Shown: piece by piece, positions 51,935 through 62,912 of the stretch | Position numbering within the stretch: the first letter of the stretch is position 1 | Layout: each line of letters starts with the position of its first letter | DNA from: Lacipirellulaceae bacterium | GTDB lineage: Bacteria > Planctomycetota > Planctomycetia > Pirellulales > Lacipirellulaceae | Assembly (NCBI GenBank): GCA_040218535.1 | Contig: JAVJRG010000005.1 | Coordinates: forward strand, 1,054,001-1,118,000 | Length of the DNA stretch: 64,000 bases | Direction: 5' to 3' | Notes under the pieces: model-generated | What the model was told of the DNA's origin: nothing | The model's database searches: none | What the model saw: only the letters and a program-made list of their open reading frames with translations | Made by a program: the position numbers and the translations under genes

Positions 51935-52681
51935 CTAATTTCCCAACGAAATTGCCCGAGACAGTGGCTGCAGCACTTCTTCTGCCGCATAATTATCAAC
52001 GACGTCCTGGCAAACTTGCCACAGGCGGTCAAGCATCTCGACGTAGGTGACACCCGCTTCCAGGCTGCCATAGTGACGGGCTGTGACGTAGACGCTCAAT
52101 TGATCGTCAGGATACTCGCCACTCCGGATTTGGTATTCGGTCGTGCGAGACTCAAAACCGACACGGCATTGCAGTCGGCAGTCTTCATCAAGCGCGATCG
52201 TGATGCTCGGTTCGTGGTGAATCAATTTCGACCCAGGAATGCCCGCCAGTTTCTCCAGGGCAGGAGAAACTCCCAAGGTTTCAGCCAAAAGTTGGTTCTG
52301 ATTGCCCCGGTAGCTGAAGTCGAAGCCCATAAACACGTCCAGTGCTTCGCAATCAAGAGGACTTAAGGAAAGCGCGTAGGGAGCGAGTTCCAGTAGGTGA
52401 CGGTGCTGAGTGAGAGCTTCCTCTGGAGTCGCCGGATTCACTTGGCCTGAGCAAAGCCGACGCGGTTCGACGGAAGCCCAGGAATAGTCGCCGCGATCTT
52501 TGTCTTCTTCCAGAAGATAACTATCTTTGTCCCGCGTGCTGAAGTTCCGCATCTGCGGGTACTTCTTCTGAACCTGCTCAAAGTAATGAAGAACGGGCTC
52601 CCTCCCATTAGGGAGTGCCATTTCCGTCGTAAGGTTGAGATTCAGGTAGTAATCGTCAGAGAGGTGCGAATAGGGATTCAT
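51935..52681 (-). CDS. Hypothetical protein, planctomycete-type
   Basis: A 248-residue protein of unknown function, without signal or membrane segments. It begins MNPYSHLSDDYYLNLNLTTEMALPNGREPVLHYFEQVQKKYPQMRNF and has a mixed alpha/beta pattern ending in a helix (MLDRLWQVCQDVVDNYAAEEVLQPLSRAI). I recognise no domain, though the pattern seems conserved rather than random. Its stop is 8 bp from the response-regulator stop, with convergent orientation. It may be a small regulatory or structural protein. Confidence 0.6.
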   Translation of the reverse strand: MNPYSHLSDDYYLNLNLTTEMALPNGREPVLHYFEQVQKKYPQMRNFSTRDKDSYLLEEDKDRGDYSWASVEPRRLCSGQVNPATPEEALTQHRHLLELAPYALSLSPLDCEALDVFMGFDFSYRGNQNQLLAETLGVSPALEKLAGIPGSKLIHHEPSITIALDEDCRLQCRVGFESRTTEYQIRSGEYPDDQLSVYVTARHYGSLEAGVTYVEMLDRLWQVCQDVVDNYAAEEVLQPLSRAISLGN

Positions 52682-55231: not shown

Positions 55232-58200
55232 CTAAGCAGCTTCCAACGGTCGCATGTGGTTTGCGAAGTCGATCCACTCGGCGACCTTCTCGCGGTTGGG
55301 GATCTTCCCATCACGAAGGACACGTTGCCCTGCCTTGCTTCGGCTGTAGCTGCGAATCTTGCGGAAAAGCTCCTCTTCGCTTGCACCGGCGATCTGCTCT
55401 GGCTCGGTAAGCCCGCAACCGACGAGTAGCTGAGCCCCGTAGCCCCGGAGTTCAGGGATGCAACAAACGAGCCGTGCTTGATGCTGCCAAGCGGCAATCG
55501 TAGTGGCCTTAATGTGACTCACTTCAATCTCGCTTGCGGTCGACTCCGCATCGGCATTCAACAGGTCAGCAACGCTGCGGATGCCAACCCCCGCTAGGCG
55601 TTCGGCGGTCTTGGGGCCGATGGAAGGTGCCTCTTCGACGTTGCTTGACCTCTCAAGAAAGAACCGTAGTTCTTTCGCGGGCCGGCTCGTTTTAGTTCTG
55701 GTTGTACTGTTCTTGCTTGTGGACCTCGCGCGAGATGTTCGCTCTGCCCTGCCGGAAACACGAGATCGAGAGCTTCTCGAAGTGCGGCTTCTACGGTTTG
55801 ACCACCGGTCGGAGTAACGCTGCCAACGCTCGCGGTTGCCCCGTGCGTTGCGACTCCAATTGGACAAGCTCTTGCTTGAGTAGCGACGTCGCAGGGCGGC
55901 GTAGCTTTGGCCGCGGCTCGAATTGAGGAATTCCTCGATCTGTGCTGAGAGAAGATCGATATCTACCTCGAAGAGGTCCGCCGGGCTATCAATTCCGCAG
56001 GTAGAAAGAACTTGGGCATCGTCCAGCGAGACGCCAGCCACGAAGCACATGAGGCTCATATGGGACTGCCAAAGTCGCACAGTACGCCCGGTGACGTGAG
56101 AGAGCGACAACCGCTCAGCCACCCAATCCGCATCAGCCTCAATCAACTGGGCGATCGTCTTGATGTCCAGGGCAGCAAACTTCGCTCTCGTCTCGGCGCC
56201 CAGCACGGGGAAGTCCGTCATGAGGGCATCTTCGCGCAGGTAGTACAAGTCCTGTGTTTCCTCAGGTGCGACCCAGTTGCCTGTGATCTTCAGTTGTGGG
56301 CCTTTTTCTGAGGAGGTCGAATTCAGATCGACCGTCTCTCGAACAATATGCCTGTGTGTCTCTTCGATGGTTGTGACTTGAGGAGTCGTGACGATCTCCT
56401 TGACCTCGACTTGCTGAGTGTCCTGTCCCAATCTTCGGATATCAACCCCAAGCGATTGCAAGCGATCAGTCGCACTTCGGTCGGCGGTAAACAGAATCAC
56501 TTGGTGGCCTTCTCGCGCGAATTCATCCAAAACGCTGGCCATTGCCGCCGCTTCAGCATCGCTCAAGCGGAGGAACGGTTCGTCCAGCAATAGTGGTAAA
56601 TGGAACTCACGAGAGGCGTGTTCAGAGATCATCGCTAAGGTGATCGCCAAGTAGACTTGGTCAATTTCTGCAGCGGTTAGTTCGGTGGCTTGGCGAGTCT
56701 GCCCGGTGTGGCTGACGACCGTCGGCAAACGACCATCCCGCGGAAGTCGAATCTGGTTCAGTCGACCATCAGTGAGCTGGGCCAAGACATCGGAAGCACG
56801 CCAGACACCAGTCTTGCGGACCTCAGTCACACGAGTGTGACGGATCGCCTGCTGCAACTGTTCTTCAGTACGACGTAGCTCGTCGCGAATCGAATCGACA
56901 GAAGTTCGACCTACGAGTTCGGCACGTTCCTTCTGAAGCAGCTCCCAGCGACGCTCCAGGTCAGCGCGTTCGCGTCCAACACGTGCGAGACTTTCGGAGA
57001 CATCTTCGCGTCGCCGTCCCAGGTCGTGTCGCTGTGCTTGCCAGTCTTGCTCGAAACGACCTCGCTGCGTGCTCCCAAGGAGCATCGCCTCGTTCTCCCC
57101 GAGGAATTCGCGATGATGTTCGCACTGGCAGTGTCGCTCGACGGGAAGTTGTGGCAGCAACATCACCGGTTGCCCAGCAAGCTGAGCCTCGTGAGTCAGT
57201 TCCTGGCGTTGCTCCAACAGGTGTTCCAACTGCTCACTCAAGTCGGTCTGCGAACGAGACAGGTGACGTGACTCGGCAGCAAGTTTACGACGTCGGGTAG
57301 CCCGCTCCTGTTCAGTAAGCTGCCCGCAAAGCGTGTAAATCTGTTGACGCAATAAATCCGCAACCGGGGTGATGCGCTTATGAGCTTCGGGAGCGATGCA
57401 GCGCCCCGGATCATGTGCACGGGCGAGCAGGGTGACTTCGGAGTCCAGGTCGTCCATCAGCCGTTCCAGGACACTCAGTGTCACGCGTTGATCGGCCAAG
57501 CTGGCGGCGTTATCAGCGGTGCCGTCGGCGTGAACGGTCGCCAACTTCCGACGGATTGTCGCCTCTCGCGATTGCAGATCACTAAGGGTGCTACGGCAGC
57601 GGGAAATCTCTGCGTCCAACTCCGCTAGCTGTGCCTGATGCTCTGCAGAATCGACCTGAGGCCCCCGTCGCAGGGTGGATTCCATCGAAAAGTATCGCAG
57701 GCGAGATTCGATCGCTGCGAGTTCCCCTTCGAGGCGCCGCAGTTCCGCGAGCAGTTCCTCTTCGTGCTTTCGCTTGCTGTTTAAGGCCTGGTCAAGCTCA
57801 GCAAGCTCCTTCTCGATGATCGAACTATCCCGTCGCCGCCCGCCGATTTGTTGTTCGATTTGCAAAGCCAGCTCGTCCCGACGTGCGACCAATTCATCGA
57901 CGAGCTGTCGATCAATCGATGTGCTTCGAAGCGAAGTGGAGTGGTCACGACATGTCCGCTCGCGGAGCGGCAGATCCGTCGAGGAGTCGAAGAACTCCGC
58001 CGATAGTTCCCGGCTGAGTAGGTTTTCAATTCGTGGATTATCAGCAAAGTCGATCGTGTACAACTGGCGAAGAAGCTTCGGCGAAACTTCTCCTAACAGA
58101 TCCTGGACGGACTGAACGTTGGCCAGTTTTTCAGCTGAATTGGTTCCACCGACCGAGGAAATACTCAATCGACCCTGAGGCGTCCCATCATGCTGACGGC

Positions 58201-58450
58201 TCAACGTGTGGTTGCCACGCCGGCTGCTGATTTCAACCGAACCTTCCAAGAGCGACCGGGAATCGAAGTTGGTCGTCTTTCCGTAAAGAACGTGAGCCAA
58301 CAGCTCGTTGATCGAGCTCTTTCCCGAGTCAGGCAAGCCATAGACGGCAGTCAACTGCGACGAAATTGCTTCAAGAGGGCCATGATTCCACAGATTGCCA
58401 ACGGATGAGCTTCTAGCACGACTGCGGGGACGAATAGCGGTAATCTTCAT
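55232..58450 (-). CDS. SMC/Rad50-like ATPase with two C-terminal DUF4332-like helix-hairpin-helix domains
   Basis: A 1072-residue protein. N-terminal ATPase half: Walker A GLPDSGKSS (38-46) in LTAVYGLPDSGKSSINELLAH. Coiled-coil-rich regions follow at about 185-300 and 370-420, and again at 465-540. Between them lies HCQCEHH (440-446), a Cys/His cluster in the position where Rad50 has its CxxC zinc hook. C-terminal ATPase half: signature-like ELTAAEIDQVYLAITLAMI (590-608) and Walker B LPLLLDEPF (618-626). Residues about 735-845 and 940-1065 are two related DUF4332-like domains (IGPKTAERLAGVGIRSVADLL), joined by a basic Ser/Arg linker (850-925). The protein could bridge or process DNA; its actual function is unknown. 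The ATG at 58450 is consistent with family starts. Confidence 0.75.
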   Translation of the reverse strand: MKITAIRPRSRARSSSVGNLWNHGPLEAISSQLTAVYGLPDSGKSSINELLAHVLYGKTTNFDSRSLLEGSVEISSRRGNHTLSRQHDGTPQGRLSISSVGGTNSAEKLANVQSVQDLLGEVSPKLLRQLYTIDFADNPRIENLLSRELSAEFFDSSTDLPLRERTCRDHSTSLRSTSIDRQLVDELVARRDELALQIEQQIGGRRRDSSIIEKELAELDQALNSKRKHEEELLAELRRLEGELAAIESRLRYFSMESTLRRGPQVDSAEHQAQLAELDAEISRCRSTLSDLQSREATIRRKLATVHADGTADNAASLADQRVTLSVLERLMDDLDSEVTLLARAHDPGRCIAPEAHKRITPVADLLRQQIYTLCGQLTEQERATRRRKLAAESRHLSRSQTDLSEQLEHLLEQRQELTHEAQLAGQPVMLLPQLPVERHCQCEHHREFLGENEAMLLGSTQRGRFEQDWQAQRHDLGRRREDVSESLARVGRERADLERRWELLQKERAELVGRTSVDSIRDELRRTEEQLQQAIRHTRVTEVRKTGVWRASDVLAQLTDGRLNQIRLPRDGRLPTVVSHTGQTRQATELTAAEIDQVYLAITLAMISEHASREFHLPLLLDEPFLRLSDAEAAAMASVLDEFAREGHQVILFTADRSATDRLQSLGVDIRRLGQDTQQVEVKEIVTTPQVTTIEETHRHIVRETVDLNSTSSEKGPQLKITGNWVAPEETQDLYYLREDALMTDFPVLGAETRAKFAALDIKTIAQLIEADADWVAERLSLSHVTGRTVRLWQSHMSLMCFVAGVSLDDAQVLSTCGIDSPADLFEVDIDLLSAQIEEFLNSSRGQSYAALRRRYSSKSLSNWSRNARGNRERWQRYSDRWSNRRSRTSRSSRSRVSGRAERTSRARSTSKNSTTRTKTSRPAKELRFFLERSSNVEEAPSIGPKTAERLAGVGIRSVADLLNADAESTASEIEVSHIKATTIAAWQHQARLVCCIPELRGYGAQLLVGCGLTEPEQIAGASEEELFRKIRSYSRSKAGQRVLRDGKIPNREKVAEWIDFANHMRPLEAA

Positions 58451-58623: not shown

Positions 58624-58692
58624 AAAGCCCTAAGCGTCAGCGCCGGGATGATAGAGCGCTGTCCCGTCCTGGCGCTAACGCTTAAGGGCTTT
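58624..58692. repeat. REP copy 1 (overlaps the transposase stop)
   Basis: A 69-bp palindrome beginning AAAGCCCTAAGCGTCAGCG and ending CGCTTAAGGGCTTT. Its right arm contains the stop codon (TAA, minus strand) of the adjacent REP-associated transposase gene. Same family as the copies at 59266, 62925 and 63343. Confidence 0.9.
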
Positions 58693-59260
58693 GGTTGGAT
58701 GCTTGGGGCATTATCATCGCAACGCCATCGTAAATCACCAAGGGATTCGGTTGCCTCTCGAGCACATAACCCCTAGCCGAAAGATATGCCCGCTCATTAG
58801 GCAACAACCGAGGCGAGCCATCCCGCGTCCACCACTTCCGCCGTTCGCCTGGATTGTAACGCGCATTCAGCACGCGGCTCGTATAGGCCTTCAGGTCGTT
58901 GAAGATTTTCTTCGGGGCTGTCTCACTCGGGTCTCCGACAATGAGATGAAAGTGGTTGTGCATGACCGCCCCCGCATGCAAGGTCCAACCGCGGTACTGG
59001 CACGTTTCCAGTAATTGCGTCAGCGCCGCCTCCGCTTGTGGCTTCGACAAATGAACCGGCGCAGTCTTGCAAAGCGCTCGAGCATGCTCCGCCAGCCTAG
59101 GCTGAGGCGCGGTCAGCTTCATCGTGCCCGTCACATCGGTGTAGCTCCACTTATGATCCCCGGGGAGCCAAGTGCCGTAGGTCGTATTGGTTAGCAGCCA
59201 CAGGTTCATGCCTGCGATTATGGCAAATAGTGAACGTTTGTCAACTTTCGCCCAATGCAC
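58682..59260 (-). CDS. REP-associated Y1 tyrosine transposase (RAYT/TnpA_REP)
   Basis: A 192-residue single-stranded-DNA transposase of the IS200/IS605-like Y1 fold. The HUH metal motif is HNHFHLIVGDPSE near residue 101 (VMHNHFHLIV), and the catalytic Tyr is likely in FNDLKAYTSRVLN (about 126-131). The opening motif WLLTNTTYGTWLPGD is typical of RAYT proteins. No partner TnpB is present, as usual for RAYTs. The upstream ATG at 59260 or an inner Met (at MNLWLL) may be the start. The stop lies in a REP copy. Confidence 0.9.
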   Translation of the reverse strand: MHWAKVDKRSLFAIIAGMNLWLLTNTTYGTWLPGDHKWSYTDVTGTMKLTAPQPRLAEHARALCKTAPVHLSKPQAEAALTQLLETCQYRGWTLHAGAVMHNHFHLIVGDPSETAPKKIFNDLKAYTSRVLNARYNPGERRKWWTRDGSPRLLPNERAYLSARGYVLERQPNPLVIYDGVAMIMPQASNQSP

Positions 59261-59465: not shown

Positions 59466-62400
59466 ATGGACGAACCCACCGCCCAAGCTTTCATCGACCG
59501 CTGGAAACCCTCCGGCGGCTCCGAATTGAGCAACTACCAGAGCTTCTTGAGCGAACTCTGCGACTTGCTCGATGTGCCCCACGCTGATCCGGCAGGGCCA
59601 GACAACGCGGAGAATGCTTACGTCTTTGAGAAAGCCGTCGTCTTCGACAATGGCGACGGCACCAGCAGCACGAAGCGCATCGATCTTTACAAACGCGGCT
59701 CGTTCATTTGTGAAACCAAACAGGGCGTCGAGCAGGAAACTTCTGAAGCCGCCCTCAGCGAGCAGCAGAAAGAGCGACGCAAAAAACGCAAAACGGGCCA
59801 CGGCAAACGCGGCACGCCCGGGTACGACGGCACAATGCTCCGCGCGAAAGGCCAGGCGGAAAGCTATGCTCGCAACCTACCGGCCAGCGAGGGCCGTCCG
59901 CCGTTCTTAATGGTAATCGATGTTGGGCACACGATTGAACTCTTTGCGGAGTTCTCCCAAACCGGCGGCGTCTACACGCCGTTCCCTGATCCGGTCACGC
60001 ACCGCATCAATCTCGACCGTCTTGTCGAACCGGAAGTCCGCGAAACGCTGCGTGCCGTCTGGCTCGATCCGCTCTCGTTAGACCCGGCCAAGCGCAGCGC
60101 GAAAGTCACCCGCGAGATTGCCGCTAAGCTGGCCGAATTGGCCAAGAGCCTCGAAGCCGCCAAGCACGACCCGGAGTATGTCGCCACGTTTCTTATGCGG
60201 TGCCTCTTCACGATGTTTGCCGAAGATATCGACCTGCTGCCCAAGGATGCGTTTCTCGATCTGCTGAAAAGCATCGACGACGTGGAGCATTTCGCTCCGC
60301 TCATGGAGCAACTTTGGCAGACGATGAACAAGGGTGGCTTTAGCACGCAGCTTCGCACCAAAGTCCTGCAGTTTAATGGCGGCCTATTCGCGGAGTCGCA
60401 CGCCATCCCGCTCACCCGCGACCAGCTCGACCTGTTGATCGAAGCCGCTTCGCAGAAGTGGAGCGATGTCGAGCCCGCCATCTTCGGCACGCTCCTCGAA
60501 CGAGCCCTCGACCCGGTCGAACGGCACAAGCTGGGTGCCCACTACACGCCCCGGGCGTATGTCGAGCGGCTGGTGATTCCCACGGTGGTCGAGCCGCTGC
60601 GCGAGCAGTGGTCAGCTGCCCAAGCTGCAGCCATCACGCAGGCCAACCAGGGGGATACCAAAGCCGCGGTCAAAACGTTGGAAGATTTTCACGACCACCT
60701 CTGTTCCGTTCGCGTGCTAGACCCGGCCTGTGGGAGCGGCAACTTTTTGTATGTCGTGCTGGAGCATTTGAAACGGCTCGAAGGGGAGCTGTTCGACACG
60801 TACGAGCAAATCGCCAAACGGCAAATGACCTTCGAGGAGAGCCACACCGTCGACCCGCACCAACTCCTGGGGATCGAGCTCAACCCGCGGGCCGCGGCCA
60901 TTGCGGAGCTGGTGCTGTGGATCGGCTTCCTGCAGTGGCACTTTCGCACCCGGGGGAAAGTCGCCCCGCCGGAGCCGGTGATCAAGAACTTCCAGAACAT
61001 CGAATGCCGCGATGCCGTGCTGAAGTGGAGCAAGCGGGAGATGGTCACGGGTGAGGATGGCCGCCCGGTCACGATCTGGGACGGCCGCACCACGAAGCCG
61101 CACCCGGTCACCGGCGAAGAAGTCCCCGACGAAACGGCACGCGTGCCGATGTACGAGTACCACGACCCGGAGAAAGCCGAATGGCCCGAGGCGGATTACG
61201 TGGTGGGGAACCCGCCGTTTATTGGCACCGCCAAGATGCGACACGACCTGGGCGATGGCTATACGGATGCGGTTCGCAAGACCTACAAGGAACTACCGGA
61301 ATCGTGCGACTATGTGATGTTTTGGTGGCACAAAGCAGCGGGACTTGCAACCAGAGGTCAAATCGAACGCTTTGGTTTCATTGCCACAAACAGCTTGCGG
61401 CAGACCTTCAATCGCCGCGTTGTCGAGCAGCATCTCTCTGGGAAGGTGCCGCTTTCGATCATTTATGCAATTCCAGATCATCCTTGGGTTGATGCTGCGT
61501 TAGGTGCTGCTGTGCGTATCTCCATGACTGTTGCAGCAGTTGGAATACCGGAAGGCCGTTTGCTGAAAGTCGTTTCCGAAGAAAAGATTCGCGATGTCGG
61601 TGCCGAGTTAGTCTTGGAAGAAGACGTAGGCCCCATTCTAGCGAACTTGAGAATTGGAGCTGCAGTTGGAAATGCCCTGCCATTGCAAGCCAATGACGGC
61701 ATCAGCAATCCCGGTGTGAAGCTGCACGGTGCGGGGTTTATCATTGAGGAGGAAGAAGCTACAGAGTTGATAGCGGGATCAAAGAATGGAATCGAGAAGC
61801 ATATTAGGCATTATCGAAACGGCAGAGATCTAACACAAACTTCTAGAAATGTATTAGTTATCGATCTCTTAGGCCTCAGTTCCGAAGATGTTCGTGATAG
61901 GTTTCCGGCGATATATCAACGATTGCTGGAACGTGTGAAGCCGGAACGCGATCAGAATCGCCGTGCGACCTATCGAGAGAATTGGTGGATATTCGGTGAG
62001 CCTCGTAAGTCGTTTCGTCCTGCGCTGTCTGGACTACCTCGCTATATCGCGACGGTAGAAACATCGAAGCACCGGTTCTTCACATTCCTCGATGAATCAA
62101 TCCTACCCGACAATATGCTGGTGAACGTAGCTACAGACGACGCGCATATACTTGGAGTTCTTTCCAGCCGCATCCACGTCACTTGGGCACTAGCTGCGGG
62201 TGGCAGGCTCGGAGTCGGAAACGATCCGCGCTACAACAAAACCGTTTGTTTCGAGACCTTCCCCTTCCCCGACGCCACCGAGCCCCAAAAGGCGCGCATC
62301 CGCGAGCTCGGCGAGCAGCTTGATGCCCATCGCAAGCGGCAGCAGGAGTTGCACCCGAAGCTCACCATGACCGGCATGTACAACGTGCTGGAAAAACTAC

Positions 62401-62912
62401 GCAGTGACGAAGAACTAACCGAAAAAGAAAAGACCATTCACGAGCAGGGTCTGGTGAGCGTGCTCCGCCAAATCCACGACGATCTCGACGCCGCCGTGGC
62501 CGACGCCTACGGCTGGCCGGTGGACTTGAGCGACGAGGAAATCCTCGAACGGCTCGTCGCGCTGAACCACGAGCGGGCCGAAGAGGAGAAGCGGGGCCTT
62601 ATTCGCTGGCTACGTCCCGAGTATCAAAACCCTGATGGGGCGACGCAACAGACGATGCTTCTCGACACGAAAGAAACGAAAAAGAAAACCACCAAGCAAA
62701 AAATCAAAAAACAACCCTGGCCCAAAAAACTGGGCGAACAAGCCGCCGCCGTCAGCGCGGCGCTCGCCGCCATCGGCGAACCGGCCGACGAAGCGCTGGT
62801 CGCCAAGCGATTCACCCGAGCCAACAAGCAGCGAATCGCCGAACTGCTAGAAACCCTAGCTGGCTTAGGGCGAGCCCGAGAACTAGAAGACGGCCGCTTC
62901 TTGGCAGTCTAA
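59466..62912 (+). CDS. MmeI-type (Type IIL/IIG) restriction-modification enzyme
   Basis: A 1148-residue fused restriction endonuclease, N6-adenine methyltransferase and specificity subunit. The nuclease motif is D73-X9-E83-X-K85 ([17 protein letters not shown]), the same spacing as MmeI (D70, E80, K82). The methyltransferase motif I is DPACGSGNF (419-427) and motif IV is NPPF (582-585). The target-recognition region should be about 640-930, and a C-terminal helical part (about 990-1148) follows, including a lysine-rich stretch [21 protein letters not shown]. One enzyme both methylates one strand and cuts at a distance. Residues about 620-925 (bases 61320-62240) are AT-richer than the flanks. 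It lies between REP copies. Confidence 0.9.

Follow-up and report, generated by a model that had tools for sequence, protein, structure and literature searches.

We analyzed a stretch of 64,000 nucleotides from a Lacipirellulaceae bacterium (GenBank assembly GCA_040218535.1, 5.36 Mb in 13 contigs; contig JAVJRG010000005.1, positions 1,054,001 to 1,118,000), referred to below as the window, and found that a gene at 55232 to 58450 on its minus strand encodes a conserved yet uncharacterized planctomycete protein. This protein combines a split Rad50/SMC-type ATPase head akin to that of YhaN, a coiled-coil hairpin with a Cys/His motif in the predicted apex region, and a C-terminal tail of two DUF4332 domains joined by a basic linker. 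We propose, with a probability of roughly one half, that it is a YhaN-derived, nuclease-free DNA-bridging scaffold that would dimerize through its heads and a metal hook, and in which ATP turnover may be dispensable in several lineages.

The open reading frame and coordinates given in a preliminary description of this gene hold, and the start codon agrees with the MRI- or MKI-type starts of most homologs in our alignment. The closest match among named genomes is Adhaeretor mobilis (L069; Pirellulales, Lacipirellulaceae), with 63% identity in the best segment. The parts of the gene, in window coordinates, are as follows.

55232..58450, minus strand: whole gene, 1072 residues, Rad50/SMC-like protein, putatively YhaN-derived, with CxCxxH at the apex and two DUF4332 domains (open reading frame, translation, Pfam, homolog alignment, AlphaFold2)
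58316..58339, minus strand: Walker A GLPDSGKS, residues 38-45 (sequence, homolog alignment)
57173..57910, minus strand: N-side helices/coiled coil, residues 181-426, four helical segments (AlphaFold2 secondary structure)
57113..57133, minus strand: apex Cys/His cluster HCQCEHH, residues 440-446, with the invariant core C441-x-C443-x-x-H446 (alignment, motif counts)
56840..57064, minus strand: C-side coiled coil, residues 463-537 (AlphaFold2)
56573..56599, minus strand: Walker B LPLLLDEPF, residues 618-626 (sequence, homolog alignment)
55841..56245, minus strand: first DUF4332 domain, residues about 736-870 (Pfam, model of the domain pair)
55658..55840, minus strand: basic linker, residues about 871-931, net charge +16, partly low-confidence (predicted local distance difference test [pLDDT] below 50 in part)
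55259..55627, minus strand: second DUF4332 domain, residues 942-1064, with the helix-hairpin-helix motif PSIGPKTA (Pfam, model of the domain pair)

Head fold and coiled coils

The Walker halves are split and separated by coiled coils, as the preliminary description had it, and Pfam, AlphaFold2, Foldseek, and VIA-align agree on this point. Pfam places AAA_23 over residues 30-286 (E 3e-6), barely above the cut-off (28.5 versus 27 bits). An AlphaFold2 model computed from an alignment of 32 family proteins (mean pLDDT 79.5; predicted template modeling score 0.39) builds the head from about residues 1-160 and 551-680, so that, as in the Rad50/SMC-like superfamily, a coiled coil divides an ABC head into an N-terminal and a C-terminal half; the superfamily's Walker A and B are present as GLPDSGKS and LLLDEPF, and a signature-like ELTAAEIDQ lies directly ahead of Walker B at about 590-598, where YhaN has LSRGTREQ. 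The best Foldseek matches of the model are Rad50 (7zr1_C, E 6.6e-13), LmuB of Lamassu, and SMC-type heads, and VIA-align superposes the head on the Rad50 chain 4w9m_K with Z 22.5 and a root mean square deviation (rmsd) of 7.3 over 283 residues. The coiled-coil arms are unequal in the model, with about 246 residues up and 75 down, and the N-side part would therefore have to fold back on itself. No globular SMC hinge is seen at the apex of the model, where only about 36 residues separate helices 354-426 and 463-513.

The label Rad50-like, used in the preliminary description, thus applies to the class of the head fold but not to Rad50 itself. The protein shares with Rad50/SbcC the split ATPase head, the coiled-coil hairpin, and a cysteine motif at the apex; in contrast to them, it carries CxCxxH instead of the CxxC zinc hook, unequal arms, and extra C-terminal domains. 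By sequence it scores 24.3 bits with Rad50 versus 50.3 bits with the YhaN of locus L063 (phmmer; scores from different databases), and a search of the neighboring genes only, not of the rest of the genome, found no Mre11/SbcD nuclease beside it.

The apex Cys/His cluster

The cluster HCQCEHH had been placed at the apex where Rad50 has its zinc hook, a position that could have proved wrong, and in the model residues 440-446 do sit in the turn region that follows helix 354-426 and precedes helix 463-513. The residues named for it fared less uniformly. C441, C443, and H446 are present in all 19 of the closest proteins, the window protein included (the other 18 share 38-65% identity with it), whereas among the 40 proteins with CxCxxH only 14 have His at position 445, also named in the description, and 22 have it at position 440, so that the invariant core is C441/C443/H446. 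In the whole set of 104 family proteins (94 aligned rows, which include the window's own and some contig-edge fragments, plus 10 further rows), CxCxxH occurs in 40, in the apex region in all 40 and elsewhere in none; family proteins without it show a shorter or altered turn. The cluster is accordingly a conserved feature of the close clade that most other relatives have lost.

Proteins with CxCxxH span distant branches (Planctomicrobium-type, Mariniblastus-type, Anammoximicrobium-type, and Lacipirellulaceae-type), which fits an old feature that was lost several times. On a tree of the DUF4332 region the cluster takes a minimum of 7 changes, 5 of them forced by well-supported branches, in a direction that the tree does not give.

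Kinship with YhaN and the YhaO partner

The genome of the window also encodes a canonical YhaN (L062:4959-8450, AAA_27 E 3.8e-17), which aligns with both head halves of the window protein (E 2e-15 and 1e-5) and has a YhaO-type phosphoesterase gene upstream (L062:3574-4827, Metallophos E 1.5e-4). The window protein itself does not match AAA_27 at E 1 or less, and of the profiles suggested earlier for checking the gene only AAA_23 and DUF4332 are matched above cut-off. Among three deep relatives of the window type that were scanned, L161 (28.1 bits) and L162 (23.9) exceed the AAA_27 cut-off of 22 bits and L158 (18.9) falls below it; L159 is YhaN-type, with 57 bits. AAA_27 matches occur in 14 of the 15 genomes tried, the window's genome holding both proteins and G016 neither. 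In a quick head tree, the family and planctomycete YhaN group at 100 support against another AAA_27 group; 6 of the 9 YhaN rows in this tree are N-terminal fragments, some branches are long, Rad50 and LmuB were not included, and the tree does not fix the root. We call the window protein YhaN-derived, and not YhaN, because it lacks both an AAA_27 match and a YhaO neighbor; it differs from YhaN also in its added C-terminal DUF4332 pair and in having the apex CxCxxH where the genome's YhaN has, by eye, two hydrophobic segments.

A further likeness to YhaN comes from deep relatives that keep a YhaO homolog upstream. With a profile built from three canonical YhaO copies only, a search of 5815 open reading frames at E 0.01 (duplicates and spurious frames included) returned, beyond the canonical copies, eight matches, each encoded on the strand of the focal gene and directly upstream of it. 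Six belong to deep relatives (L092, L095, L097, L098, L101, and L158; E 2e-66 to 8e-16); five of these fall in the Planctomycetaceae-type clade of the head tree, and the other, L095, has an uncertain place in the tree. The remaining two, L159 and L160, adjoin a YhaN-type protein, and we rejected them as deep family members with YhaO since the head tree puts both with canonical YhaN. At L159 (3324-8401) the overlapping YhaO-YhaN pair includes a YhaN with one C-terminal DUF4332, an independent or intermediate fusion. No phosphoesterase neighbor was found with the YhaO profile at the Pirellulales loci searched, nor a YhaO neighbor at any of five loci (L163-L167) of f15, another family of the order.

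In the six upstream homologs both of the catalytic motifs tested are broken. Motif I (D-x-H) reads DFR, DFR, ELC, ELR, ELC, or SLR, and the D of GD in motif II is lost in all six. In the control copies next to canonical YhaN, at L062, L063, L064, and L177, YhaO retains both motifs, although the third motif region looks atypical as well. In three genomes of a family labeled f21, the YhaO beside canonical YhaN lacks motif I, and the L174 copy lacks the motif II D as well; f21 is probably Planctomycetaceae, in the same class, since L158, L161, and L162 group with the Planctomicrobium rows. Judged from these motifs, loss of YhaO nuclease activity may be widespread in the class. The three copies are as follows.

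L174:5906-7237, YhaO homolog with motif I = NLR
L175:2487-3989, YhaO homolog with motif I = NLR
L176:2514-3944, YhaO homolog with motif I = NLR

Walker motifs across the family

The ATPase motifs are recurrently absent from the family. Of 82 assessable proteins, 34 lack Walker A (GK[ST]) and 35 lack the Walker B acidic pair; 46 have lost at least one motif, and 36 keep both. The count starts from 90 proteins with a full C-terminal region, for which all scored proteins were selected, and leaves 8 contig-edge rows unscored. L046, L051, L061, and L132, with short C-terminal regions, were excluded from it and from the tree, while L144 (782 residues, odd, long-branched), which may be another architecture, counts as lost. 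The motifs were read from an automatic alignment, in which single divergent rows may be misread, and the sample is uneven, being the 80 best of 120 confirmed loci, which had been retrieved with two peptide patterns, one of which lies around Walker B. A minimum of 6 changes in Walker A and 10 in Walker B is required on the DUF4332-region tree. In three relatives (L057-L059) the D-E of Walker B is replaced by D-Q.

These data bear on the possibility that the protein is an active DNA-repair ATPase, a second YhaN-type repair-complex subunit that borrows a nuclease encoded elsewhere, either an SbcD or the YhaO of this genome. All 19 closest proteins, the window protein among them, do retain Walker A and the Walker B DE, a YhaO gene is present elsewhere in the genome, and an adjacent YhaO homolog still stands at deep relatives. 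However, those adjacent homologs have broken D-x-H and GD motifs, the Pirellulales loci searched have no phosphoesterase neighbor, many relatives lack Walker motifs, and the genome's YhaO is already paired with its own adjacent YhaN, so that we regard a borrowed nuclease as rather unlikely, if still deserving attention.

The DUF4332 tail and linker

The two C-terminal helix-hairpin-helix DUF4332 domains of the preliminary description are confirmed: Pfam finds DUF4332 (PF14229) in two stretches (E 1.4e-25, 90.3 bits in all, cut-off 23.2) and, in the same region, HHH_5 above cut-off (E 2e-8). Modeled alone, the pair reaches pLDDT 90.7 around a disordered middle. Of the 94 aligned proteins 88 were scored for this middle linker, and in every one of them its net charge is positive (from +1 to +24, median +11.5); in the same alignment the median charges of the six other regions are negative. 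The best VIA-align match of the pair is the RAD51C N-domain (Z 9.1, rmsd 2.3, 64 residues), with further helix-hairpin-helix matches in NusA and Y-family polymerases; Foldseek gave the pair no match below E 0.001. From these sequence features, the tail is likely to bind DNA. The open-access literature that we searched yielded no function for DUF4332, naming the domain in a single paper, as a gene-map legend label.

In a second planctomycete fusion, one DUF4332 follows a zinc-dependent phospholipase C-like domain (PF00882) at the N-terminus; this latter domain was recognized by eye where Pfam is not named below. The thought that this fusion marks a partner of the window protein, in the manner of a Rosetta stone, is weak, as just 2 of the 43 genomes in the window's taxonomic family contain the phospholipase C-like domain.

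L149:5405-7303, PF00882-DUF4332 fusion, PF00882 Pfam-confirmed
L150:5094-7244, PF00882-DUF4332 fusion
L151:3880-5763, PF00882-DUF4332 fusion
L152:3415-5514, PF00882-DUF4332 fusion, PF00882 Pfam-confirmed
L153:3687-5273, PF00882-DUF4332 fusion, PF00882 Pfam-confirmed
L154:3315-5057, PF00882-DUF4332 fusion

Instead of binding DNA, DUF4332 might be a protein-binding module in a scaffold of the envelope, the septum, or a signaling system, possibly one linked to cyclic di-GMP. The DUF4332 fusions to a phospholipase C-like domain would suit such a role, as would some neighbors of the gene. A GGDEF-cluster gene lies just upstream on the same strand at nine loci (L047, L049, L050, L052, L054, and L057-L060), with a GGDEF gene also at L086 (Pfam was run on L049 and L086 only), and a PilZ-like cluster gene lies 91-367 bp upstream at L040, L041, L043, L046, and L065; the sole copy of that cluster tested, at L045, matched PilZ at E 0.001, below cut-off. 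Yet most gaps to the upstream gene are about 90-370 bp, which is not a tight operon, the loci are related and thus represent few independent events, and the window copy has neither a GGDEF nor a PilZ-like neighbor. The conserved basic linker and the helix-hairpin-helix signature point to nucleic acid instead, and we consider a non-DNA scaffold improbable.

Distribution and neighborhood

Relatives were found in Pirellulales and in Planctomicrobium-type Planctomycetales. In the window's taxonomic family, 41 of 43 genomes have a match to the window protein at any strength, and 36 have a window-type gene or a clear fragment of one by hand count; G016, G020, G022, G023, G026, G029, and G037 have none. 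Because G016 and G020 are over 90% complete, the gene is dispensable in part of the family. In G027 and G028, which count among the 36, it takes a 713-733-residue form without DUF4332; forms of 713 and 733 residues (L051:8933-11074 and L061:2157-4358) have intact Walker motifs and neither the DUF4332 tail nor the apex cluster, and adjoin a gene that we take, from its sequence, to be ApbE-like. DUF4332 itself occurs in 46 of 60 f15 genomes, in 38 of these within a frame of at least 880 residues (hand count; length does not prove architecture), in 11 of 57 genomes sampled evenly across the order (the window's family accounting for 4 of the 11), and in 18 of 119 genomes across the phylum.

The restriction enzyme and REP-type (repetitive extragenic palindromic) transposase that the preliminary description reported beside the gene are both there. 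A Y1 transposase, REP-type by a weak match (31.8 bits), lies at 58682-59260 directly upstream, and an MmeI-type type IIG restriction-modification enzyme of 1148 residues at 59466-62912 on the plus strand (PADLOC type IIG, 1607.9 bits). With phmmer (E 1e-5), neither has a homolog at the remaining 117 loci, which comprise 20 genome duplicates, 3 YhaN-pair loci, and 94 other distinct family loci, some cut by contig ends. The suggestion of a role in defense weakens because these neighbors recur at none of the 94, and we rejected the reading of the region as a defense island as unsupported. The neighborhood survey of family loci found no gene conserved beside all copies, and the strict co-occurrence with a housekeeping pathway that could have overturned the description was not seen. 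We also rejected carriage on a plasmid, as a tblastn search of 72,556 plasmid records gave nothing at 1e-5, and the window has no Rfam match at gathering score. On the minus strand at 51935-52681, a 248-residue frame without a Pfam match resembles, by eye, the cluster 2 family (12 loci), which recurs close to an ogt-like methyltransferase gene in the surroundings of the focal gene.

The protein also resembles LmuB of Lamassu, with structural matches to 9hqu, 9uxh, and 9nyg and a PADLOC LmuB match over the ATPase and coiled coil (residues 32-667, E 5.4e-14) whose 50.3 bits about equal the phmmer score of YhaN. According to PMC10586767, LmuB is Rad50-like, is in many cases hooked with CPxCG or similar, and generally bears a Walker B E-to-Q change; the relatives L057-L059 here have D-Q. 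A defense protein related to LmuB is nevertheless very improbable, since the window protein differs from LmuB in its tandem DUF4332, the gene is widely kept (36 of 43 family genomes), no LmuA/LmuC-like operon is seen beside the window copy (its neighbors being the Y1 transposase and an M10-type metalloprotease, by Pfam and by PADLOC on three window proteins), the type IIG enzyme and transposase stand beside the window copy only, and no partner gene is conserved beside all copies (LmuA and LmuC were not sought by name at other loci).

Discussion

We picture the proposed DNA-bridging scaffold as a dimer. Two protomers would join at their heads, in an ATP-dependent manner where Walker motifs survive, while the coiled-coil tips would join via a metal site to which each chain contributes a CxCxxH. 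The C-terminal tail, consisting of a helix-hairpin-helix DUF4332, the basic linker, and a second DUF4332, would grip DNA, and the dimer could in this way hold DNA segments together, either in nucleoid organization or in repair tethering. The DNA-maintenance role raised in the preliminary description is therefore supported as a type of role, while the role itself stays presumptive. In the open-access literature searched, no title or abstract on planctomycete Rad50 or the nucleoid, YhaN/YhaO, or SbcC repair describes this family.

Several observations weigh against a DNA-bridging scaffold of this kind. The cluster is missing from 64 of the 104 family proteins (some of which are fragments), so that a metal hook is not essential throughout the family, and the apex turn region is of low confidence in the model (pLDDT below 50 at 427-439). 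The fold matches of DUF4332 are weak, within the chance range for helical domains, and helix-hairpin-helix domains can bind proteins instead of DNA. The window protein may hydrolyze ATP, because both of its Walker motifs are kept. Raw counts seem to couple loss of the cluster to loss of the ATPase, with both Walker motifs kept in 29 of 32 proteins with the cluster versus 7 of 50 without it, but with kinship taken into account the coupling lacks support (median p 0.5 in a sign test). The head tree, in which YhaN proper falls within the group, does not establish a single origin of the DUF4332 fusion. Finally, erosion of YhaO is wider than this family, because the f21 copies beside canonical YhaN are also eroded, and the YhaO neighbor is present in only 5 of 9 rows of the Planctomycetaceae-type clade, with none found at L102, L105, L161, and L162.

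Taking the proposal a step further, we entertain tentatively the idea that a lineage of SMC/Rad50-type proteins in Planctomycetia discarded first its nuclease partner and then, repeatedly, its ATPase, and that the grip on DNA moved from ATP-driven heads to an added tail of helix-hairpin-helix domains and basic linker, with a new CxCxxH metal hook in the ATP-dependent lineages. Such a protein might be a chromosome-architecture factor peculiar to bacteria with unusual nucleoids.

If this is true, a coiled-coil ATPase architecture can persist as a scaffold after loss of both nuclease and ATPase, and the family would offer natural separation-of-function variants to the SMC/Rad50 field. It would also provide a testable role for DUF4332, a domain nearly absent from the literature searched, and a candidate nucleoid factor for planctomycetes.

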